A stretch of DNA of 42,430 nucleotides. It comes from a virus. The DNA lies in the IMG/VR virus record IMGVR_UViG_3300050821_004187, positions 1-42,430 of that record, one strand, 5' to 3'. Position 1 is the first letter of the stretch. Each line of letters starts with the position of its first letter. This document shows, piece after piece, positions 6,724 through 35,674 of this stretch. The position numbers were made by a program, and so were the translations under genes. The notes under the pieces were generated by a model. That model ran no database searches and had not been told where the DNA came from. It worked only from the letters and a program-made list of their open reading frames with translations.

Positions 6724-8096
6724 TGCCGAGCTGGAGCGAACACGCCAACCAGGGGAACCTGACCGTCAAGGGGAAGCGCGCCAACGCCCACCAGGCGGAG
6801 ATGATGGCGCTGATCGCGACCCGCACCCGCGCCAAGGGCGGCGACCTCGAATCCGCCGCCGGGGCGATCGCCACGGCGATCCAAGAGAGCGGCGTCACGA
6901 ATATCAACTTCGGCGACCGCGACAGCCGCGGCCTCTACCAGCAGCGCCCGAGCATGGGCTGGGGGACGGTCGCGCAGATCACGACCCCGAGCTACGCGAT
7001 CGACAAGTTCCTGTCGATCTACCTGCCCTACCGCCGCCAAGGCCTCGGCTGGCTCACGGCGTCGCACAAGACCCAGCGATCCGCGTTCGCGAGCGCCCCC
7101 GCGAAGTGGTACCCCGAAGCGCTCCGCGCCGCCTCCTACTTCATCGGCGGCGGCGGCGCCGGCGCCGGGGAGAGCGCAGGCGTGACCGGCGACGGCGGCA
7201 CCTCCTACACCGAGGTCCGCGACAAGCCCTACGAATTCAGCCGCGGCACCGCGGACAAGAAGGAGGACAGCTGGACCTGCATCGGGCGCCTCGCCGAAGA
7301 GGTCGGCTGGCGCCGGTTCACCAAGCGCGGCGAGCTGTGGTTCGTCACCGAGGAGTGGCTCGGCAAGCAGGACGCCAAGTACCGGATCTCGGAGACCTCG
7401 CGCGGCGTCGTCGGTCTCAACTTCGAGTTCGAGACCCGCCAGGAGGCCGCAGAAGCGAACCTCAAGGTGATCACCGGCCGGTACGCCCTCGGGCCCGGCG
7501 ACGTCGTGCAGTTGTTCGACGAGGGCCCGGCCGACGGGAAGTGGTTGGTCGCCTCGACCCGCCGGGACCTGTTCTCCGTCACCCAGGACATCACGCTCAA
7601 ACGGGTCGGCGTGAAGCTCCTCGAGCCCGCCCCCGAGCGCGAGACCAGAACCATCACCGTCGCCGGGAACGACGTCGAGATGGCCGGGAGCGGCGCCGCC
7701 AGCGGCGACGGGTCGCTCGGCTCCCGCATCTACGCCGCCGCCCAGGCGGCGACCGCCAAGAACTGGATCTATTCGCAAGGACAGCGGAACAACTTCTCCC
7801 GTTATGCCGACTGCTCGAGCGGCGTCTCCTGGGTGCTGACCAGCGCCGGGATCGCGGTCCCGAACGGCTGGCGGCCGGGGAGCGGCAACGCCCCCGTCTC
7901 GGGCAACTTCCTCAGCTGGGGGCAGGCCGGCCGAGGGTCACGCGTGACCGTGTGGACGAACAGCGGCCACATCTGGATCCAGTTCCACGGGTTCCCGATG
8001 TGGCGGTTCGACACCGGCGGCGGGTCCGGCGGGAAGCTCCACTCGAGCGCGCGGTCGACCGGCAGCTTCGTCGCCCGCCACTGGCCGGGGACCTGA
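6723..8096 (+). CDS. Baseplate hub C-terminal half fused to two cell-wall hydrolase domains
   Basis: A 457-aa multidomain protein. Residues about 25-135 resemble an actinobacterial lytic-transglycosylase-type module: [33 protein letters not shown] and a PSYAIDKFL helix. Residues about 160-305 resemble the C-terminal half of a gp27/XkdQ hub ([41 protein letters not shown]). Residues about 330-457 look like an NlpC/P60-type domain with a nucleophile motif [10 protein letters not shown] and a histidine in SGHIWIQF. Role: penetration of the wall by the baseplate during infection. The ATG at 6723 directly abuts the preceding stop (TGATG). Confidence 0.8.
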
Positions 8097-10540
8097 TGCC
8101 CGGAGACCTCGACCAGCTCCTCACCCCGCCCGACGTCGCCTCCGCGCTCGGCAACTCGCAGGGCTGGGAGGCGCGCGTCACCCGCCTGACCCCGCGCGGC
8201 CCGATGGTCGTCATCGACGGCTTCAACCGGCAGCTGCGCTGGGGCCCGTGCGCGCCGGCGGACGTCAACGTCGAGGTCGGCCAGCGCGTCCTCGTCACCC
8301 TGACCAACCGCGGACGACCGTGGATCTCGCCGAGCGTCGGAGATCCCGCCGCCGTGGGCCCCCCAGGGCCCCCAGGACCGGACGGGCCGCGCGGTCCCGA
8401 AGGCCCGCAAGGGATCCAGGGGACGCGCGGCCCAGGCGGCGCACAGGGCCCCCAGGGCGACCAGGGCGACGACGGCCCGATGGGCCCCCACGGCGGCGCC
8501 GAGATGCTCGATACGCAAGTGGTCTACGGGCGCCAGGACGCCTACTCGCCGCAGCTGGGCGCGCTGACCGCCGTGCTCGTCGACGACGTCGAGCCGCTGG
8601 CGCTGGACATCACGCCGATCGTTGACGCGTGGTGGGAGCTGACGGTCAGCATCGGCCTGCTCGAAAAGTCCGACTCCTCCTACGGCTACTGCTACGCGCA
8701 GGTCACCCTCGACCCGCCAGACGAGGACGGGCGCGCGACCGCTTCGGCGATCGCGACGCAACACCTGGACGTCAACCGCTACGACGCTCGCGTCCTGGCC
8801 CCGCTGTTCAAGCTCAAGGAGGGGGTCGCCTACCGCGCCGCCGTGTTCCTGTCGCCGAGTTCCGGGCTGTGGACCTACTACCGGGGCCAGCAGCAGCTGA
8901 TGATGAGCGGCAAGGCGTGGGGTCGCGGGCTGGGCACCGACCCACCGCAGGGCCCGCCCGGCCCGCCCGGCCAGGACGGCATCGACGGCATCGACGGCGC
9001 CCCCGGCCTCCCGGGCCCCGCCGGTCCAGACGGCCCGATCGGCCCCCGCGGCGACCCCGGCCCGCAAGGCGACCGCGGCGAGGCCGGCGTCGGCCACGAG
9101 ACCACCCCGATCGGCGGCGTGATCGCGTGGACCGGCCGCACGATCCCCGAGGACTTCGTCCTCGCCGACGGTCGCCGCCTCGAGCAGTTCGACTACCTGC
9201 AGGGGTTCAACTTCGCCGTGACCGAGTGGTTCGCTGGCAACCCGCTCTGGTCGGTCGACCTCAACAGCGACCCGCGGACGTTCACCGTCCCCGACCTGAC
9301 CGACCAGTTCGTCCTCTCGGGCCCGGCGATCGGCACCCGCGGCGGCGAGCGCGAGCACACCCTCACCGTCGACGAGATGCCCCGCCACGACCACGTGGGC
9401 ACCGATAACGACTACTACTTTCGCGCCTCGTCGACGGAGGTCGGCGACCTCGAAGTCGCGCTTTACAACCCGGCCAACACGCCGCAGGCGTGGGCCTACA
9501 ACCGCCTCATCCCCGCCGGCGGCGGCCAGCCGCACAACAACATGCCGCCCTGGGTCGCGCTGGCCTACATCGTCAAGGTCCGCGGCGTCGTCATCGACGG
9601 CGACCACCTCGTCGGCCCACCAGGCGCCCAGGGCCCGCGAGGCGCGCAAGGCGATCGCGGCGACCCCGGCCCGGACGGCCCCGTGGGCGCTCAGGGGCCC
9701 CCCGGTGACCTCGGGCCCCCGGGTCCCGACGGTCCGCCCGGCCCGACCGGCGACACTGGCCAGCGCGGCGACGTCGGCCCAGACGGCCCGCCCGGCGAGA
9801 CCGGCCCCGAGGGCCCCCAGGGCGTCAAGGGCGACCCCGGCGATCTTGGCCCCGTGGGCCCGCAGGGGCCCGCTGGGCCGCAGGGCGACCGCGGTCCCGA
9901 GGGTTTCCCCGGCGAGCCCGGGATCGGCCTCCCAGGCGCCCAGGGCCCCAAGGGCGACCCCGGCGAGAAGGGCGACGTCGGCGAGAAGGGCGACAAGGGT
10001 GACCGCGGCGACGAGGGGCCCGCCGGCGCCGGTGTCAACCCGCGCTACGCCCGCCGCTACCGGGCGGCCGCGTTCACGATCCCGTCCGGCAACTTCACGC
10101 GCCTGCCCTATGACACGCCCGGCGGCGGCGACGCCTCGCTGTTCGTCGGCGAGGAGTACGTCGCCCCCGTCGACGGCTACTACCGGGCGATCGTCTCGTG
10201 GGCGATCTCGCACAACGTCGGGCAGCCGGACACCTACTTCTTGCTGGGGGTCGCGGTCGACGGCGGCTTCCAGCTGGTCAGGATGGGCTACGTCCCCGCG
10301 CAGGTCGCGGGCAACCCGCTGCCGTTCGCGACGTTCGCGATCGACGGGACCGTGCCGCTCCGCGCCGGGCAGCGCATCGGCGGGATGGGCGGCTACTCGA
10401 ACCGCAACACCGACATGGCGACCAACGTCGGCGGCGGCGAGATGCACACCTACATCGAGGTCGCGATGGTCGCCCCGCTCGCCCCCGGCACCGTCATCGA
10501 ACCCGGCCCGACCTCGATCGAGGAGCTGCTGCATGCCTGA
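8096..10540 (+). CDS. Chimeric spike/tail fibre: OB-like head, three collagen blocks, collar domain, C-terminal knob
   Basis: An 814-aa structural protein. Residues 1-85 look like a small OB-type spike/gpV domain. Collagen Gly-X-Y blocks lie at about 87-134, 283-332 and 505-645. Between them are a globular beta domain (135-281) and a phage tail-collar domain (335-498: [20 protein letters not shown], then DEMPRHDH and [12 protein letters not shown]). The C-terminus (647-814) is a beta-rich knob reminiscent of C1q/TNF-like folds ([23 protein letters not shown]), expected to trimerise and bind receptor. The ATG at 8096 overlaps the hub stop; everything in this frame before it is shadow. Confidence 0.85.
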
Positions 10541-22816: not shown

Positions 22817-23716
22817 GTGCGGGTCGGCTCCCTGTTCACCGGGATCGGCGGGTTCGATCTCGGCCTCGAGCGCGCCGGGATGCGAGTCGTCTGGCAGTGC
22901 GAGAGCGACCCGTGGGCCCGCGCCGTCCTCGCCCGCCACTGGCCAGGCGTCCCGTGCTACCCCGACGTCGCCAAACTTGCCGGCGCCGACATCGAGCCCG
23001 TCGACGTCCTCTGCGGCGGATTCCCCTGCCAGGGCCTCTCGGACGCCGGGCTGCGGCTCGGGCTGCTCGACCCGCGCTCGGGTCTTTGGTCGGAGTTCGC
23101 CCGCCTCATTCGCGAGCTACACCCCGGATGGGTCGTCGTGGAGAACGTCCCAGGCCTCCTTGTTCGGGGGATGGGCCGAGTTCTCGGAGACCTGGCCGCG
23201 AGCGGGTATGACGCGGAGTGGGACTGCCTACCCGCTAGCGCCTTCGGCGCCCCCCATCGCCGAGACCGGGTCTGGATCGTCGCCTACCCAGCCGCAGCTG
23301 TGGCCGACCCCGAAGTCGAGCCCGTCGGGCCCGGACTACGCTCGAGCGCGGCGGCCGCGGTCCGGCAGCGACGACCTCGCCACGGCGGTCGCCCGGCTGG
23401 TGCCGACGCCGACGGTCTCGGACAGCAAGGGCGCCTCCCCGGGTTTGAAGCGGGAGGGGTCGGACAACCTCGCCGAGTTCGTGATGTTCCTGACGCCGAC
23501 GGCTTCGAACCGCGACTCCGCGGGCGGGACCAACAGCCGACGACGCCAGGACCGGGACGGCACCTACATCAGTGGGCAGCTGAACCCGACGTGGGTCGAG
23601 TGGCTGATGGGGTTCCCGCTCGGGTGGACCGACTTAGGGGTCTCGGCAACTCGCTCGTCCCGCAGATCGCCGAGTGGATCGGCGGGCGGATCATGACCTG
23701 GGAGAACGCCGCATGA
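22817..23716 (+). CDS. DNA (cytosine-5) methyltransferase
   Basis: A 299-aa C5 methyltransferase. Motifs in order: I, LFTGIGGFDLGLERAG (6-21); IV with catalytic C71 in GGFPCQGLSDAG; VI, VVVENV (106-111); VIII, HRRDRVWIVA (147-156); and X, LGNSLVPQIAEWIGG (276-290). The segment between VIII and X (about 160-265), where target recognition should lie, is low in hydrophobic residues and reads poorly. In the +1 frame the same DNA encodes a better-looking chain (see the overlapping feature). Likely role: protecting phage DNA from host restriction. GTG 22817 follows the MazG-like stop by one base. Confidence 0.8.
   Translation: MRVGSLFTGIGGFDLGLERAGMRVVWQCESDPWARAVLARHWPGVPCYPDVAKLAGADIEPVDVLCGGFPCQGLSDAGLRLGLLDPRSGLWSEFARLIRELHPGWVVVENVPGLLVRGMGRVLGDLAASGYDAEWDCLPASAFGAPHRRDRVWIVAYPAAAVADPEVEPVGPGLRSSAAAAVRQRRPRHGGRPAGADADGLGQQGRLPGFEAGGVGQPRRVRDVPDADGFEPRLRGRDQQPTTPGPGRHLHQWAAEPDVGRVADGVPARVDRLRGLGNSLVPQIAEWIGGRIMTWENAA
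23118..23696 (+). other. Overlapping +1-frame reading within the methyltransferase gene
   Basis: The +1 frame is open from 22680 to TAG/stop at 23696. From about 23118 it encodes a protein-like chain: SSWRTSQASLFGGWAEFSET, WPRAGMTRSGTAYPL, LWPTPKSSPSGPDYARARR, VARLVPTPTVSDSKGAS, ISGQLNPTWVEWLMGFPLGW. I recognise this style from C-terminal regions of many phage methyltransferase-like proteins, where it is the main frame. No own start or Shine-Dalgarno was found. It may be a frameshifted C-terminus, an overprinted ORF or a relic. Confidence 0.4.
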
Positions 23717-23961
23717 GCATCGAGCTCCACCTCGACGACGCCGGCGTCGAGCGCCTCGCCGACGCGATCGCGCGCCGCCTCGAGGGGCGCCTCGGCGTCG
23801 CGAGCCCGTGGCTGACCGCCGAGGACGCCGCCGCCTACATCGGCGCCCCGGTCTCCCGGATCCGGCAGCTGACGATGGGCGACGAGATCCCGGTCCACCG
23901 CGACGGCCGGCGCGTGCTCTACAACCGCGACGAGCTCGACCGCTGGCTCGCGTCCCATTAG
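23713..23961 (+). CDS. Excisionase candidate (HTH_17/MerR-type)
   Basis: An 82-aa protein. After an acidic first helix, SPWLTAEDAAAYIGAPVSRI, then IPVHRDGRRVLYNRDELDRWL, is the winged-helix pattern of excisionase-type DNA-binding proteins. It is the last gene before the integrase, the usual place of the recombination directionality factor. ATG 23713 overlaps the methyltransferase TGA. A 90-bp gap follows, containing GGGGTAAGGTCGTGCGACCCC then TTAATTT in pieces that could form a weak hairpin. Confidence 0.78.
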   Translation: MSIELHLDDAGVERLADAIARRLEGRLGVASPWLTAEDAAAYIGAPVSRIRQLTMGDEIPVHRDGRRVLYNRDELDRWLASH

Positions 23962-24051: not shown

Positions 24052-25203
24052 ATGAGCACCCAGAACCCTAACCCGCCTCGGACGACCGCGGTCGACGGCG
24101 AGCCCGGCATCTACCTGCTCGCCAACGGCAAGTACCTGATCCGGTTCCGCGACGAGACCGGCAAGGTCCGCGACCGGCGATTCCCCAACCTCACGCTCGC
24201 CAAGCGCGCCAAGGGCAAGATCGACGGCGGCGAGAAGCGCGCCGAGAACCGCCAGACATTCCGGGCCTACGCCCAGCACTGGCTCGACACCTACACCGGC
24301 CGGAAGGCCCACGGCGCCACCGACGAGACCGTCGAGAGCTACCGCGACTCGATCGAACGGCTCGCGATCCCCTTCTTCGGCTCCATGCGGCTCGACCGGA
24401 TCGACCCGCCCAAGGTCAAGGCCTTCATCGCCCACCTCGAGGACCAGGGGTACGCGCCCGCCACGATCCGCCGGTACTTCGCGCCGGTCCGCGCGCTCTT
24501 CAAGACCGCGTTTGAGGACGGGATGATCGGCCGCGACATCAACGTCCGGGTCGTCCTCCGGAACCCGCAGGAGCGCGCGCCGCGCCTCCCGCTGACCGCC
24601 GACGAGACCGCCGCGATCCTCGCCGAGATCCCCGTCAAGCACGCCGACGTCGCGCTGCTCTACGCCACGACCGGCGCCCGGCTGCAGGAGCCCTTCGCGG
24701 TCCGCTACTCAGACCTCGGCCACGACGACGAGGGGTGCCCGACGATTCGGTTCCCGCGGTCCAAGACCCCGGCCGGGCTGAAGCCGATCCGCCTCACCCC
24801 GGAGATGGCGCAAGCGCTCACCCGCCGCCGCGCGGAGACCGGCGCCGGGCCTAACGACCTCGTCTTCCCCTCGGCGACCGGCACCGAGATGAGCGGTCGC
24901 AACTGGCGCCGCCGGGTCTTCCGGCCCGCCGCCGAGCGCGCCGGTGTGCCCACGGCGACACCGCACCAGCTGCGGCACGGCGTCGCGACCCTGATGGCCA
25001 ACACCGGCGCCACCGCCAGCGACATCGCCCGGGTGCTGCGCCACGCCGACGGCGGGCGCCTCGCCATGCAGACCTACATCCACAGCGACGCGCCCGACGT
25101 CACCTTCCTCGACGACGTCTTCCGCGCCGCCCGCGAGCACAACAGCACAACGGGTAGCACAACACCCCTACAAACCTCGGCCGATGTGGGCCAAACTCGA
25201 TAG
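24052..25203 (+). CDS. int: Tyrosine recombinase integrase
   Basis: A 383-aa integrase. Residues about 18-60 form an N-terminal arm-binding-like domain (GIYLLANGKYLIRFRDETGK); 68-165 the SAM-like core-binding domain; 180-365 the catalytic domain. Catalytic residues are visible: R210 (TTGARLQE), H305 and R308 (HQLRHG), H331 (LRHADG) and nucleophile Y342 (MQTYIH). It inserts phage DNA at a chromosomal tRNA-Thr gene, judging from the attP just downstream. ATG 24052 has AGGAGG upstream. The last codons contain three copies of the GCACAAC repeat, so the 3' end doubles as part of attP. Confidence 0.95.
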   Translation: MSTQNPNPPRTTAVDGEPGIYLLANGKYLIRFRDETGKVRDRRFPNLTLAKRAKGKIDGGEKRAENRQTFRAYAQHWLDTYTGRKAHGATDETVESYRDSIERLAIPFFGSMRLDRIDPPKVKAFIAHLEDQGYAPATIRRYFAPVRALFKTAFEDGMIGRDINVRVVLRNPQERAPRLPLTADETAAILAEIPVKHADVALLYATTGARLQEPFAVRYSDLGHDDEGCPTIRFPRSKTPAGLKPIRLTPEMAQALTRRRAETGAGPNDLVFPSATGTEMSGRNWRRRVFRPAAERAGVPTATPHQLRHGVATLMANTGATASDIARVLRHADGGRLAMQTYIHSDAPDVTFLDDVFRAAREHNSTTGSTTPLQTSADVGQTR

Positions 25204-25212
25204 GCGCGATTT

Positions 25213-25243
25213 GCGGGGGTTTCTCGACCCGAGCAACCCCCGC
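25213..25243 (+). terminator. Long hairpin after integrase
   Basis: GCGGGGGTT (25213-25221) pairs with AACCCCCGC (25235-25243), and inside it CTCG (25223-25226) pairs with CGAG (25230-25233), giving a near-continuous stem. No T-tract follows. It may terminate the early transcript or be a structural part of attP. Confidence 0.5.
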
Positions 25244-25260
25244 CGAACCCCCTGACTAAA

Positions 25261-25303
25261 CTCGTAATGAAGATGTCCCCGGTTCGAGTCCGGGCGTCGG
25301 CTT
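25261..25303 (+). other. attP: attP core: 3' part of a tRNA-Thr(CGU) gene
   Basis: The segment reads as a tRNA from the anticodon loop onward: loop CTCGTAA (anticodon CGT, Thr), 3' anticodon stem TGAAG, variable loop ATGTC, T-arm CCCGG-TTCGAGT-CCGGG, acceptor 3' strand CGTCGGC and T discriminator. The 5' half is missing: the preceding bases (CTAAA) cannot pair with TGAAG. So it is not a functional tRNA but the identity block that restores the host tRNA after integration. Confidence 0.85.
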
Positions 25304-25310
25304 CACACAA

Positions 25311-25334
25311 ACCCCCCGGAAACGGGGGGTTTTT
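25311..25334 (+). terminator. Intrinsic terminator
   Basis: ACCCCCCG (25311-25318), loop GAAA, CGGGGGGT (25323-25330) and then TTTTCG. It lies directly after the tRNA-derived block, so it might be the terminator of the host tRNA gene carried along by the phage. Confidence 0.85.
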
Positions 25335-25643
25335 CGTTGGCCCACCGACACGGCGCCCGTGGGGCCAGCACAACACGTCGCACAACAGGCCCGCACAACG
25401 GGCACAACGGCTACCCCAGCCGTGACGCGCCGTGTGCCCGCGTGCGCCCGCCAGGCGGCGCCTCGACGCAACCCCCGCCTCGACGCCGCGGGGCCCGGCA
25501 GATGGCCGCACAACGCGGGAGGGCAAGCATCGTTTTGCGTCCCGATCTTGCGCAATACGCACGCGCCCGACGCACGATGTGTCTCCCGACAGGCGTAGAG
25601 TCAGCGCGCGACGCACCAGCCACCCCCCAGGAGGTCCAGCCAC
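25335..25643. promoter_or_regulatory. Gene-free right arm of attP and upstream region of HTH operon
   Basis: About 310 bp without a credible gene. It contains five of the GCACAAC repeats, the palindrome TTGCGCAA (25548-25555; the same 8-mer is found at 15545-15552 by the early promoter), and a -10-like TAGAGT (25596-25601), identical to the -10 of the early promoter but without a clear -35. A promoter for the operon beginning at 25644 is likely here. Confidence 0.45.
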
Positions 25644-26096
25644 ATGCCTGCCGCTCGCACGAACGGCCTCATGCCTGATTCGGCAGAGGCCCAGCTAACC
25701 GCGCTTCTCGACGCCACCGTCGACGAGCTCCAGACTCGCCACGACGTGCTCAAACTCGAGCTCACCCAGGTCGCCGAGAAGTTGAAGCGCTACAAGCAGA
25801 TGCAGCGCGCCGGGCAGGGCCCGGCGCCCACGGCCCCGAAAGCAGCGGACAAGCCGACGATGAAGTCGTCGCCGAAGATGCGCGAGCGCGTGCTCGCCGC
25901 CCTGCGCGACGCCGGCGAGCCGCGCACCGTGAAGGCGATCGCCGAGACCATTGGCGCCAGCCGCGGGATCGTCGACGCCGCCGTCAAGCAGCTTCGCGAG
26001 GATGACCTCGTCCGGTTCGCCGGGAAGGACACGAGCGTCACCAACGGGGTCGCCCCGGCGACGTGGGCGACCTTCCCCGAGGCCGCTGATGCCTAG
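25644..26096 (+). CDS. Coiled-coil winged-HTH protein
   Basis: A 150-aa protein. Residues about 20-52 form a coiled coil (TVDELQTRHDVLKLELTQVA), followed by an Ala/Pro/Lys linker (56-78), and a winged helix (80-140: MRERVLAALRDAGEPRTVKA, IGASRGIVDAAVKQLREDDL). It probably binds DNA as a regulator of this accessory operon. GGAGGT lies ten bases before ATG 25644. First gene after attP, so in the prophage it would be at one end. Confidence 0.7.
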   Translation: MPAARTNGLMPDSAEAQLTALLDATVDELQTRHDVLKLELTQVAEKLKRYKQMQRAGQGPAPTAPKAADKPTMKSSPKMRERVLAALRDAGEPRTVKAIAETIGASRGIVDAAVKQLREDDLVRFAGKDTSVTNGVAPATWATFPEAADA

Positions 26097-26511
26097 AACG
26101 CACTTCGCGCTCGCCGACGCGAGCGACCGCGAGCTGCTCGCGCTGCTGCTGGACGCCGCCGGACGCGAGGGTCAAGCCTCGACGGCGGACGTCGCCGACC
26201 TGGCCGGTCTGAAATCGAAGCGACCCCTGGTGAATGTGGGCGTCAGGCTTGGGTACCTCCGCAAGATCGGGCTCGTAGAGCGCGATCCCGAGACCCGCGG
26301 CTGGTATTTGACGGCCACCGGGGAGTCGTTCGTGGCTGGTCGACTCTCGGCCGCTGCCCGCCGCGCCCTCGACGATCTCGACGGGGGCGCGGCTTGGGTA
26401 GCGACAGAACAGCTCGGCGAGCTGCTCCGTCTCGCCGGCGACACCCAAGCAACGATGATGCGCCGCCAGTGGCAGCACGCATGGCTGCGCCGCAACGGAT
26501 ATCGGCGGTGA
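26089..26511 (+). CDS. Winged-HTH protein
   Basis: A 140-aa protein. The first half is a winged helix (LLLDAAGREGQASTADVADL, LVNVGVRLGYLRKIGLVERD and a strand GWYLTATGE). The second half is helical with a basic end (MMRRQWQHAWLRRNGYRR). It overlaps the preceding HTH gene by eight bases, and the pair may form a regulatory unit. Not assigned to a named family. Confidence 0.68.
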   Translation: MPRTHFALADASDRELLALLLDAAGREGQASTADVADLAGLKSKRPLVNVGVRLGYLRKIGLVERDPETRGWYLTATGESFVAGRLSAAARRALDDLDGGAAWVATEQLGELLRLAGDTQATMMRRQWQHAWLRRNGYRR

Positions 26512-27629: not shown

Positions 27630-27937
27630 TGTCCGGGACCTACTACGACTTCGAGGGCAACCCGATCGACGTGCTGGAGTGGGCGCGGCTGTTCGAGTCG
27701 GCCGACAGGGTCCTCGCCCGGACCCGCGTCGGCGACGGCTCCGAGGTCTCGACCGTGTGGCTCGGCCTCGATTACTCGTTCGGTCAGGGCACCCCGCTGA
27801 TCTACGAGACCATGATCTTCGGAGGCCCGCACGACGAGTACCAGGACCGTCACCCGAACCGCGACGCCGCGCTCGCGGGGCACGACCAGGCGGTCGCGCT
27901 CGCCCGCGACGCCGCTCGAGCCGATGCCGCGCGCTGA
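27629..27937 (+). CDS. Conserved small phage protein, unknown function
   Basis: A 102-aa protein. The segment VSTVWLGLDYSFGQGTPLIY and then ETMIFGG, followed later by a helix beginning AALAGHDQAV, matches a small protein widespread in actinophage and proteobacterial phage accessory regions; its function is not known to me. TGATG coupling with the gene before it. Confidence 0.75.
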   Translation: MSGTYYDFEGNPIDVLEWARLFESADRVLARTRVGDGSEVSTVWLGLDYSFGQGTPLIYETMIFGGPHDEYQDRHPNRDAALAGHDQAVALARDAARADAAR

Positions 27938-28106
27938 CGACGAGCACATGGCGGTCCCGACCTGGCGGATGCGCCAGCTCCAGGACATCGAGCAGGCGGC
28001 GCTCGAGGTCGTCGAGATGATCGGCCAGACGGAGTACTCGAAGCGCTCCGAGTTCGAGCGGGAGATCAGCGCGCTCCTGAGCGACGCGATCGAGGGGCCG
28101 CGATGA
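27924..28106 (+). CDS. Small helical protein, unknown
   Basis: A 60-aa helical protein (MRQLQDIEQAALEVVEMIGQ, EFEREISALLSDAIE). ATG 27924 overlaps the previous gene by 14 bases; ATG 27948 (MAVPTWRM) is an equally possible start. The stop overlaps the next ATG (28103). Function unknown. Confidence 0.62.
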   Translation: MPRADDEHMAVPTWRMRQLQDIEQAALEVVEMIGQTEYSKRSEFEREISALLSDAIEGPR

Positions 28107-28213
28107 CCAGCGGTCGACCAATCTGTCTGGTGTGTTTCGGCGCGGCGGTATTGATCGCGCCTTGCGGAATCCCGGTCTGTGCGCGCTGCGCCCCGAAGGT
28201 CTGGAAGTTGTGA
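28103..28213 (+). CDS. Tiny zinc-ribbon ORF, 36 aa
   Basis: The product contains ICLVCFG and, 12-15 residues later, CGIPVCARCA, a four- to five-cysteine arrangement typical of micro zinc ribbons. ATG 28103 overlaps the previous TGA (ATGA) and the stop overlaps the next GTG (28210), so both borders follow the operon's pattern. Too short for normal ORF cut-offs but well supported by context. Confidence 0.6.
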   Translation: MTSGRPICLVCFGAAVLIAPCGIPVCARCAPKVWKL

Positions 28214-28470
28214 GGGCCCCCCGCCGGTTCTACGCCGCGCACCGCCGCGCCTACGTCCCGCGCCTCTGGCCGATGCTGATCGGCACCGGCCTGCTGGTGC
28301 TCGCGGCCTGCCTGCTGACCAACCCGACCGTCCTCGAGGGGATCGCGATCGGCGCCGGCGTCGCCCTCGTCGTCGGCGTCACCCGCTGGGAGATCTGGAA
28401 GCACCGCCACCCGGTCATCACCCCGGCCGAATACATCACCGACCTCCAACGAAAGGCGCGCTGGAACTGA
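28210..28470 (+). CDS. Small two-TM membrane protein
   Basis: An 86-aa protein. A basic N-terminus (RAPRRFYAAHRRAYVPR) is followed by two hydrophobic helices (about 23-41, MLIGTGLLVLAACLL; about 46-63, LEGIAIGAGVALVVGV) and a basic tail. Topology suggests both ends in the cytoplasm. Function unknown; a membrane protein of the accessory region could modify the host envelope. GTG 28210 chosen for the GTGA overlap. Confidence 0.68.
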   Translation: MRAPRRFYAAHRRAYVPRLWPMLIGTGLLVLAACLLTNPTVLEGIAIGAGVALVVGVTRWEIWKHRHPVITPAEYITDLQRKARWN

Positions 28471-28745
28471 TGCCCACCGTCCCGCACGGCCGCTGGGAGG
28501 GCGCCGAGGCCTACCGCGTCAACCTCAGCCGCGAGGACGACGACTACCAGGTCTTCGGCCCCAACGAGCGGATCAAGGTCCTTCGGATCTCGATCGGCGG
28601 CACCGACGAGATCGGCTACTACCTCAAATTCCGCGGCGACCCCGACGACGTCGTCAAAGTGCTGGAGATCATGCTCGAGGCCGCGCGCCGGCAGCTGCCC
28701 CGCGGCCGATACCGCGACGAACGGACCCACCGCCATGAGCGCTAG
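28470..28745 (+). CDS. Small protein, unknown
   Basis: A 91-aa protein with beta strands (YQVFGPNERIKVLRISIGG, IGYYLKFRG), a helix (VVKVLEIMLEAARRQLP) and a basic end. Not recognised. TGATG coupling upstream and an 11-base overlap downstream. Confidence 0.68.
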   Translation: MPTVPHGRWEGAEAYRVNLSREDDDYQVFGPNERIKVLRISIGGTDEIGYYLKFRGDPDDVVKVLEIMLEAARRQLPRGRYRDERTHRHER

Positions 28746-29139
28746 CGAACGCCGCATCGCCGAGCTCGAGCGCCAGCTCGAGGAGGCCGAGATGAAGAAC
28801 CGCGAACTGCGCCACCTCCTCCAGCGCCAGCTCCAGACGACCGACACCCTGTGGTTCGAGTCCGGGGTCTCGGGCCGCACCGGCGAGCCGTTCGTCCACA
28901 TCCGCTGGGGCGACGAGTCCGGCCAGCTCGACGTCGACGTCGCCCGCGAGCACGCGCTGCACATGCTCGAGGTCACGAACGCCGCCGAGTTCGACGCCGC
29001 CTTCATCCGCGGCCTGACCACGCCCGAGCCCGAGGGCCCCGGGCTCGAGCTCGACACGGCGATGGGGATGCTCATGATCGTCAGGAAGGCGCGCACCGGC
29101 GACGTCGACTCGAGCCTCGCGACCCCGCGCGACCCCTGA
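28735..29139 (+). CDS. Coiled-coil protein, unknown
   Basis: A 134-aa protein with an N-terminal coiled coil of about 30 residues (RRIAELERQLEEAEMKNREL) followed by an alpha/beta part (EPFVHIRWGDESGQLDVDV, HALHMLEVTNAAEFDAAF). It ends this operon; a terminator hairpin follows 25 bases later. Function unknown. Confidence 0.7.
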   Translation: MSASERRIAELERQLEEAEMKNRELRHLLQRQLQTTDTLWFESGVSGRTGEPFVHIRWGDESGQLDVDVAREHALHMLEVTNAAEFDAAFIRGLTTPEPEGPGLELDTAMGMLMIVRKARTGDVDSSLATPRDP

Positions 29140-30171: not shown

Positions 30172-30870
30172 ATGAAGTACGTCAAGCGCGGCGGGTTCGT
30201 AGTCCTCGCCGCCACAGCTGCCGCGTTCATCGGCAGCGTCGGGTTCGCCGGCGCCCAGCCGATCGGCGGCGCCCAGGCCCACCCCGCCAAGGCAGGGAAG
30301 GTCGGCCCTCGAGGCCCGCGCGGCTTCCCCGGCCCGGCCGGTCCCGCTGGCCCCGTGGGCCCCGCTGGGCCCGCTGGTGCCACTGGTCCCGCTGGCCCAA
30401 TGGGTCTAACCGGCCTCGCCGGTCCGGCAGGCCCAGTCGGCCCTGCTGGCGCCACAGGCCCCGCCGGTCCGGCCGGCGACACGAACACGTCCGAGTTCAC
30501 GTTCAAGGGCGACACCGGCACGCCCAACACTGACGTGAGCAGCCTCGACGGGATCAAGCTCGACGCGACCTGCGACGCCGTCGGTCGCCTGACCCTGACC
30601 GCCGTGGCGACGAACGTCGCCCCGGGGATCCTCACCGAGCGCGACGGGATCAACTTCGCGATCGTCCCGCGGTTCGGCGAGGCCAACACGACGGCCCACG
30701 TCCTGATCTCGCCGCTGAGCTCGGCGAGCTCGCGCGCCGACGTGACCGTCCACTACGTGTCCAACGCCGGGCAGGACACGACGATCAACCTCGCCGCAGT
30801 CGACCTCGCCGACGGCCCCAACGGCCTCGGCCAGGCCTGCGTGGTGTTCGGCACCGCCACCACGTTCTAG
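30172..30870 (+). CDS. Secreted collagen-like protein (moron candidate)
   Basis: A 232-aa protein with a typical Sec signal peptide: basic MKYVKRGG, a hydrophobic core ([18 protein letters not shown]) and a cleavage site near AGAQP. Residues about 43-103 are about 20 Gly-X-Y triplets (mostly GPA), followed by a beta-rich C-terminal domain of about 125 residues with two cysteines (LDATCDAVG and GQACVVFG). It stands alone between two strong terminators, with AAGGAGG before ATG 30172 and a -10-like TATGCT at 30057-30062. Unlike the virion fibre it carries an export signal, so it probably acts on the lysogen's surface. Confidence 0.82.
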
Positions 30871-34224: not shown

Positions 34225-34230
34225 CATAAT
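34225..34230 (+). promoter_or_regulatory. -10 box CATAAT of a leaderless transcript
   Basis: CATAAT is followed after seven bases by GTG 34238. An A-tract (34210-34216) lies upstream and could act as an UP-like element; no good -35 is visible. Confidence 0.5.
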
Positions 34231-34237
34231 GCCGGGG

Positions 34238-35674
34238 GTGGCGTCCGAAAACCCGCCGGGACTGCAGGTCCGCCAGATCCCGCTCGTCCGGCTCCACGAG
34301 GCGCCGTGGAACGCCAACGTGATGTCGCCGGCCATGCTCGCGCGGGTCCGCGAGTCGATCCGCCGGTTCGGCGTCGTCGAGAACCTCGTCGTCCGGCCGC
34401 TCGCGCGCCGCGGCCACTTCGAGGTCCTCTCCGGGAACCACCGTCTGCGCCTCTACGAGGAGGAGGGGTTCGAGACCGCGGGCGTCCACGTCGTCGACCT
34501 CGACGACGCCCAGGCGCGACTGCTCGCGCAGACCTTGAACCGCACCCGCGGCCGGGACGACCCCGAGCGGTACGCCGACCTCCTGCGCCGCGTGCTCGAG
34601 GACTTCGCCCCGGCCGACATCACGCAGCTGCTCCCGGAGACCGAGCAGGCGATCGCGAAGCTCGTCGGCGACCTCGGCGGCCCCGAGCCCGACCTCGCGC
34701 TCCCGCCGCCCGAGAACCCGCGGTCGCAGCCCGGCGAGATCTACGAGCTCGGCCCGCACCGCCTCCTGTGCGGCAGCGCCCTCGACGCCGGCGCCGTCGC
34801 CGAGCTCCTCGCGGGCGCCGAGCCGACGCTGATGGTCACCGACCCGCCCTACGGCGTCCGGCTCGACCTCCTCTGGCGCGACATCCGGCTCGACAACACC
34901 CACACCCGCGGCAACCCGCTCTACCAGCGCGACGTCAAGTTCCGCGAGAAGGTCGCCAAGACCGCCCCGAGCCTGAAGCACTACATGACCGACCGCGGGC
35001 CCGAGCACCAGACCGGGAGCCTCAGCGGCGACACCCGCGCCGACTGGGCCGACGCCTACGCCCTCGCGCCCTCGCTCACCGTCGCCTACGTGTGGCACGC
35101 CGGGCAGTGGTGCGACGAGGTCGGCGCCGGGCTGCGCCGCACCGGCTGGGAGATCGCCCAGCAGATCATCTGGGACAAGGGCCTCTTCGCTCTCTCGCGC
35201 CAGCGGTACCACTGGCAGCACGAAGGCTGCTACTACGCGTTCCGGGTCGGCGCCGAGGTCCCCTGGTACGGCCCGACGCACGTCCCCGCGTTCTTCGCCC
35301 GCAAGCCCGGCACCGGCGCCCCGTGGCTCGGCGGCGCCGACCAGTCGACGGTCTGGCAGGCCGCGAGCCCGAAGATGATCATGGGCCCGCACGGCGGCGA
35401 CGAGGACGCCAAGTACGACCACCCGACCCAGAAGCCCGTCGAGCTCTACGCCCGCCCGATCCGCAACCACCTCGAGCCCGGCGCGTGGATTTACGACCCG
35501 TTCGTCGGGTCGGGCACCGCGATCATCGCCGCCGAGCTCACCGGCCGGCGCTGCCTCGCGATCGACGTCGACCCCGCCTTCTGCGACGTCGCACGGCAGC
35601 GATACGCGATCTACACCCGGCGCCCCGACCTTGCACCCGACAGGACGCGCCGTGGGCCCCTGTCCGCCGTCTGA
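34238..35674 (+). CDS. ParB-domain / DNA adenine methyltransferase fusion
   Basis: A 478-aa fusion. Residues about 8-110 are a ParB-like domain (VRQIPLVRLHEAPWNANVMS, a helix, HFEVLSGNHRLRLYEEEGF). Residues about 160-475 are an N6-adenine/N4-cytosine methyltransferase: motif IV DPPYG (202-206), motif I FVGSGT (422-427), and the segment KYDHPTQKPVELYARPI, giving beta-class motif order. Such fusions are common next to terminase genes. GTG 34238 is preferred to ATG 34229, because that ATG overlaps the -10 box CATAAT; the difference is three residues. Role: modifying phage DNA, possibly at packaging. Confidence 0.9.
   Translation: MASENPPGLQVRQIPLVRLHEAPWNANVMSPAMLARVRESIRRFGVVENLVVRPLARRGHFEVLSGNHRLRLYEEEGFETAGVHVVDLDDAQARLLAQTLNRTRGRDDPERYADLLRRVLEDFAPADITQLLPETEQAIAKLVGDLGGPEPDLALPPPENPRSQPGEIYELGPHRLLCGSALDAGAVAELLAGAEPTLMVTDPPYGVRLDLLWRDIRLDNTHTRGNPLYQRDVKFREKVAKTAPSLKHYMTDRGPEHQTGSLSGDTRADWADAYALAPSLTVAYVWHAGQWCDEVGAGLRRTGWEIAQQIIWDKGLFALSRQRYHWQHEGCYYAFRVGAEVPWYGPTHVPAFFARKPGTGAPWLGGADQSTVWQAASPKMIMGPHGGDEDAKYDHPTQKPVELYARPIRNHLEPGAWIYDPFVGSGTAIIAAELTGRRCLAIDVDPAFCDVARQRYAIYTRRPDLAPDRTRRGPLSAV

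Follow-up and report, generated by a model that had tools for sequence, protein, structure and literature searches.

Eight exact copies of the heptamer GCACAAC, all in the same orientation, flank a tRNA-derived attP core and reach back into the 3′ end of the adjoining integrase gene (int). From the sequence we consider it very probable that the integrase uses these repeats as its arm-type binding sites. This reading is supported by the position of the repeats, by their symmetry about the core, by a DNA-level constraint on the tail of int, by the exchange of the repeated word in a sister phage and by the recurrence of the same plan elsewhere. The first-pass annotation of this DNA had already proposed arm-type sites, and this is the best-supported reading, with the binding itself predicted. 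The window, that is the whole stretch of DNA analysed, is an entire IMG/VR virus record of 42,430 bases.

GCACAAC repeats on both sides of the attP core

An exact word search of the 42,430 bases found 14 copies of GCACAAC, every one on the + strand, against 2.5 expected (sd 1.6); 14 copies were reached in 0 of 100 shuffles. Eight of the 14 fall between 25137 and 25514 (Table 1), the same number on the same strand as first annotated. Three are in the last int codons (362-371), four lie past the core and one is isolated, in agreement with the earlier placing of three copies at the end of int and five beyond the core. The steps between successive copies are 8 and 12 bases in the first cluster, 211 bases across the core, 12, 13 and 9 bases in the second cluster and 106 bases to the last copy. 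The spacing of 8-13 bases claimed inside the clusters was correct, and the eighth copy stands apart; it may be a chance occurrence and not an arm site. The other six copies are scattered through the record. The word is not equally common elsewhere in the genome, which the first-pass annotation had named as a finding that would count against arm sites.

No other 7-mer in the record is as strongly clustered as GCACAAC, which has 8 copies within 400 bases. In 100 block-wise dinucleotide shuffles, scored for any word, the best word per shuffle reached 4-7 copies and never 8. With the density of the six other copies taken as background, a Poisson model gives a probability of about 2e-15 for at least 8 copies in 378 bases, uncorrected for the choice of word and place. 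The extended consensus of the copies is GCACAACRS, which adds two loose positions, and no further exact copy or strong near-copy was found in the region. The repeats are present on both sides of the core (three and four, plus the isolated one). Measured from the mid-point of the anticodon loop in the core, the centre of one main cluster lies 114 bases upstream and that of the other 124 bases downstream; relative to the anticodon region, their copies span -124 to -104 and +107 to +141.

The core was identified by eye because the half tRNA was not called by ARAGORN. Its T-stem, CCCGG/CCGGG, encloses TTCGAGT, and the hairpin and T run that follow are placed as after a tRNA gene. A search with Rfam gave no tRNA and only a weak tRNA-like sRNA and terminator match below the cut-off. 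Strand exchange probably occurs at the anticodon loop; att cores at this loop have been described as common for mycobacteriophages (PMC10865867). No exact match to the core that could mark the host attB was found in a genome collection of 84,980 species, and none was found in viral contigs. The window also carries two DNA methyltransferase genes (22817-23716 and 34229-35674), a pair made up of a C-5 cytosine methylase and a fusion of ParB-N with an N6/N4 methylase, and the ORF list includes collagen-like Gly-Pro-rich repeat proteins at 30172-30870 and about 8080-10540.

Table 1. Features of the integration region (positions in the window, or residues of Int where so marked).
Feature	Position	Strand	Basis or remark
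Probable excisionase (Xis/RDF), HTH_17 / excise family	23674..23961	+	PF12728 E 4.8e-10; TIGR01764 above cut-off; directly upstream of int
int, tyrosine integrase, 383 aa	24052..25203	+	PF00589 E 2.8e-13; PF13102 E 3.4e-9; phrog_1 integrase E 1.1e-52
Int, predicted N-terminal arm-binding fold	residues 19-76		Fold predictions
Int, core-binding SAM-like domain	residues 69-164
Int, catalytic domain	residues 185-346		Catalytic Tyr342
Int, tail	22 codons		Read through P arm
GCACAAC, all eight starts	25137, 25145, 25157, 25368, 25380, 25393, 25402, 25508	+	Exact word
Putative arm site P-1	25137..25143	+	Exact GCACAAC, inside int
Putative arm site P-2	25145..25151	+	Exact GCACAAC, inside int; reading frame differs from P-1
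Putative arm site P-3	25157..25163	+	Exact GCACAAC, inside int
attP core, 3′ half of tRNA-Thr(CGT)	about 25260..25302	+	By-eye reading; anticodon loop to discriminator base
Core anticodon loop CTCGTAA	25261-25267
Terminator-like hairpin, then T run	25309..25336	+	10-bp perfect inverted repeat 25309-25318/25323-25332
Putative arm site P′-1	25368..25374	+	Exact GCACAAC
Putative arm site P′-2	25380..25386	+	Exact GCACAAC
Putative arm site P′-3	25393..25399	+	Exact GCACAAC
Putative arm site P′-4	25402..25408	+	Exact GCACAAC
Isolated eighth GCACAAC	25508..25514	+	Exact word, 106 bases beyond P′ cluster; distal arm site or chance
HTH regulator genes after attP	25644-26096 and 26092-26511

The integrase and the 3′ end of its gene

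In an alignment of seven integrases (A1), Int residues R210, K238, H305, R308, H331 and Y342 were invariant, and the R-K-H-R-H-Y set is complete. Single-sequence AlphaFold gave a fairly confident strand-strand-strand-helix prediction for residues 19-76; the remainder was poor in the full-length prediction, in which only the N-terminal domain was good. The closest solved folds to this domain in Foldseek included the N-domain of Tn916 Int (1b69 and 1bb8, DNA-bound), with a weak E of 0.58, and a plant AP2-type DNA-binding domain (1gcc), again with weak E-values. No Pfam arm-domain match was found in Int, even at E up to 1. Given the weak Foldseek E-values and a domain without a Pfam name, we grade the predicted arm-binding fold of the N-terminus as likely.

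Int is about 25% identical at best to phage and plasmid integrases. Searches of viral_contigs and genome_contigs found no close relatives of the whole protein and no close Int relative with an intact attP, and no DNA similar to the window was found among annotated phages. A query with an Int fragment returned six loci, none with GCACAAC in the same layout; the closest, L273, ends at a contig edge. A profile of distant integrases contained no block conserved enough for scanning.

The end of int differs in composition from the rest of the gene. The share of G+C at third positions falls from 96% in codons 1-361 to 55% in codons 362-383, the lowest stretch of the gene, and this drop in codon bias sets in at the first repeat. 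Of the 419 Thr codons in 22 window genes, 8 are ACA, and three of these eight sit in the repeats. Furthermore, the int-internal copies occupy two reading frames, and AlphaFold predicted the end of the Int tail, at low confidence, to be without structure. Together these features support the view that the last 22 int codons act as attP DNA and are translated only incidentally. The earlier suggestion that the end of the int coding sequence is shaped by DNA binding is thus supported by the collapse of codon bias, the ACA codons and the two frames. The putative arm sites in the 3′ end of int, also pointed out earlier, are present in the window; the arrangement has a precedent in lambda, whose record has an annotated Int-binding stretch (27814-27854) overlapping the 3′ end of int (27812-28882).

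Sister-phage, unrelated and known integration cassettes

A sister phage, IMGVR_UViG_3300050821_003880 (G003/L136), was reached via the terminase gene. Its terminase is 85% identical to that of the window, the structural genes are related and the aligned DNA pieces are 70-94% identical, while its integrase shows 31% identity to Int in the matched part. As in the window, there are an int gene, a terminator, a tRNA core and direct repeats at nearly the same distances, here two plus two. The core is tRNA-Arg-like and oriented opposite to that of the window, and the repeats begin just after the int stop. They have a different word, GTTTGCTCC, found twice just past the stop and twice beyond the core, at -119, -108, +126 and +137 from the anticodon region. 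No GCACAAC cluster was found at this cassette, and a search for GTTTGCTCC pairs matched only the sister phage itself and one unrelated tandem array. The putative arm word differs with the integrase and the geometry stays the same. The neighbouring genes differ too, so the exchange is one of the cassette and not of the integrase alone; between L136:14576-16010 and window:23674-25514 the whole integration cassette differs and the arm-to-core distances are kept.

The same plan was seen in unrelated elements. In L147, a low-GC element, two copies of TGCAACACG lie in the end of int and two more past a tRNA 3′ end, and in VWB GATGCCAC occurs three times after int with an 11-base period. When viral contigs were scanned for GCACAAC in the window geometry, many loci came up, most of them with no integrase close by; by a rough estimate, about half a match beside an integrase was expected by chance. 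Among these loci was L229 (IMGVR_UViG_3300042299_000585), which like the window has a GCACAAC pair in the last int codons and a pair past a tRNA-like core. Unlike the window it has an unrelated int from another integrase subfamily and four sites only, at -112, -101, +105 and +116; the spacing is 11 bases, and the two sites beyond the core are GCACAAC and GCACAAG, the latter being the last. Because L229 was selected by the word, the word in it is not independent evidence; its integrase, its tRNA-like core and its fourth, near-copy site are.

After the last P-arm copy, window:25157-25180 and L229:5494-5515 both read GCACAAC.CCCCT..AAA, and the int tails are alike (TTPLQTSA in the window, TTPLKSNA in L229), by shared arm ancestry or by chance. 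Pairs of GGCACAAA with 11-base spacing lie downstream of int at L275:3480-3505 and L276:3480-3505, and the N-termini of these two integrases look similar, by eye, to that of the L229 integrase. The pairs suggest that GGCACAA-type words may be common in the L229/L275/L276 integrase family. GCACAAC had been put forward as a new motif. It does differ from the words of the known systems named below, but it is also found in the attP-like region of L229 with the same geometry.

The plan of the arm sites is already known, and the word and the three-plus-four count are this phage's own. In mycobacteriophage Pixie, the putative arm sites of attP comprise a pair on the left and three on the right, all direct, and a sixth that is inverted (PMC3203893). 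Pixie is like the window in its tyrosine integrase, its tRNA-derived core and its direct putative arm sites on both sides, and unlike it in the inverted sixth site, an attP 5′ of int, another arm sequence and a lysogeny shown experimentally (PMC3203893). Lambda Int binds its arm sites via the N-domain (PMC4880445). Lambda shares with the window the heterobivalent plan, in which the N-domain is on the arms and the C-terminal part on the core (predicted in the window), as well as arm sites, putative in the window, in the 3′ end of int; the word is different, the lambda core is not a tRNA gene and the lambda arms involve IHF, Xis and Fis. In pSAM2/pACPL, a tRNA core is flanked by 21-nt repeats of tandem short words, and pSAM2 Int binds the repeats, which were reported to be needed for efficient recombination (PMC3364876). 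These conjugative elements differ from the window in their word and in having fewer copies.

Other possible roles for the repeats and a proposed mechanism

Another phage protein could bind the repeats, which would then form an operator or an Xis array for the probable excisionase or for one of the HTH regulators. Suitable HTH genes do lie close by, Xis proteins also bind repeats in attP, the P′ cluster is upstream of the gene at 25644, and in the KplE1 class int promoters overlap the att sites. Such a role is nevertheless very unlikely. The copies stand at matched distances on both sides of the core, three of them are in the 3′ end of int and far from any promoter, and the same two-sided plan is found with other words beside other integrases; the Xis sites of lambda, moreover, lie in one arm. 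We give still less weight to chance, or to a coding repeat in the int tail accompanied by unrelated downstream copies. Six scattered copies do occur elsewhere in the record, but the cluster statistics contradict this explanation, and the two reading frames, the sudden fall in codon bias where the repeats begin and the two-sided symmetry all speak against it; its probability is close to negligible.

A role as replication-origin iterons, adjoining attP by coincidence, is also highly improbable. In other phages, GCACAA/TTGTGC arrays do lie outside att sites, close to replication genes of the Prim-Pol or DUF3987 type. Several of those arrays, however, mix the two orientations, and no tRNA core was seen in them, whereas the window copies are direct and core-centred, and none of 10 further window proteins scanned with Pfam was a Prim-Pol, several of them having no Pfam match at all. 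Iterons beside an initiator gene were rejected, the array flanking a tRNA core and int instead.

Most loci returned by a scan for three close GCACAAC copies were not att sites but coding repeats or arrays of replication type. GCACAAC/TTGTGC arrays, partly in both orientations, were seen at L014:3944-4193, L012:1038-1200 and L037:4676-4925, and the L012 layout recurs in L019, L059, L060, L093, L100 and L111. These arrays belong to unrelated phages, lie no more than about 1.5 kb from Prim-Pol or DUF3987 replication genes and look like replication-origin iterons that share the word.

If the repeats are arm sites of Int, its small N-terminal domain (a predicted three-stranded sheet and helix) would bind GCACAACRS on both arms, at three sites in the P arm inside the end of int and at four, perhaps five, in the P′ arm. 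The core-binding and catalytic domains would hold the core at the tRNA-Thr anticodon loop, about 115 bases from the arm sites. Both arms would bend, and Int would bridge core and arms to form an intasome. The host tRNA-Thr(CGT) gene would be restored upon recombination, since the phage carries the 3′ half of the gene and a terminator. The HTH_17 protein encoded upstream would be the excisionase that reverses integration.

The array may say something further about arm recognition, at a much lower probability. We think it unlikely, though worth stating, that Int binds cooperatively along the three-plus-four array, whose direct sites are tightly packed (8-9 base steps), in a row that differs from the lambda arms, and that the unrelated integrases of the window and L229 reached GCACAAC independently. 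If true, the independent arrival of unrelated integrases at one word would hint that arm words follow a limited code. For finding such cassettes, two tests on raw sequence are suggested: arm words at matched distances on either side of a tRNA anticodon loop, and a fall in the codon bias of int where the arm starts. The window thereby provides an int-attP cassette with clear putative arm sites for an uncultured, probably actinobacterial, phage lineage.
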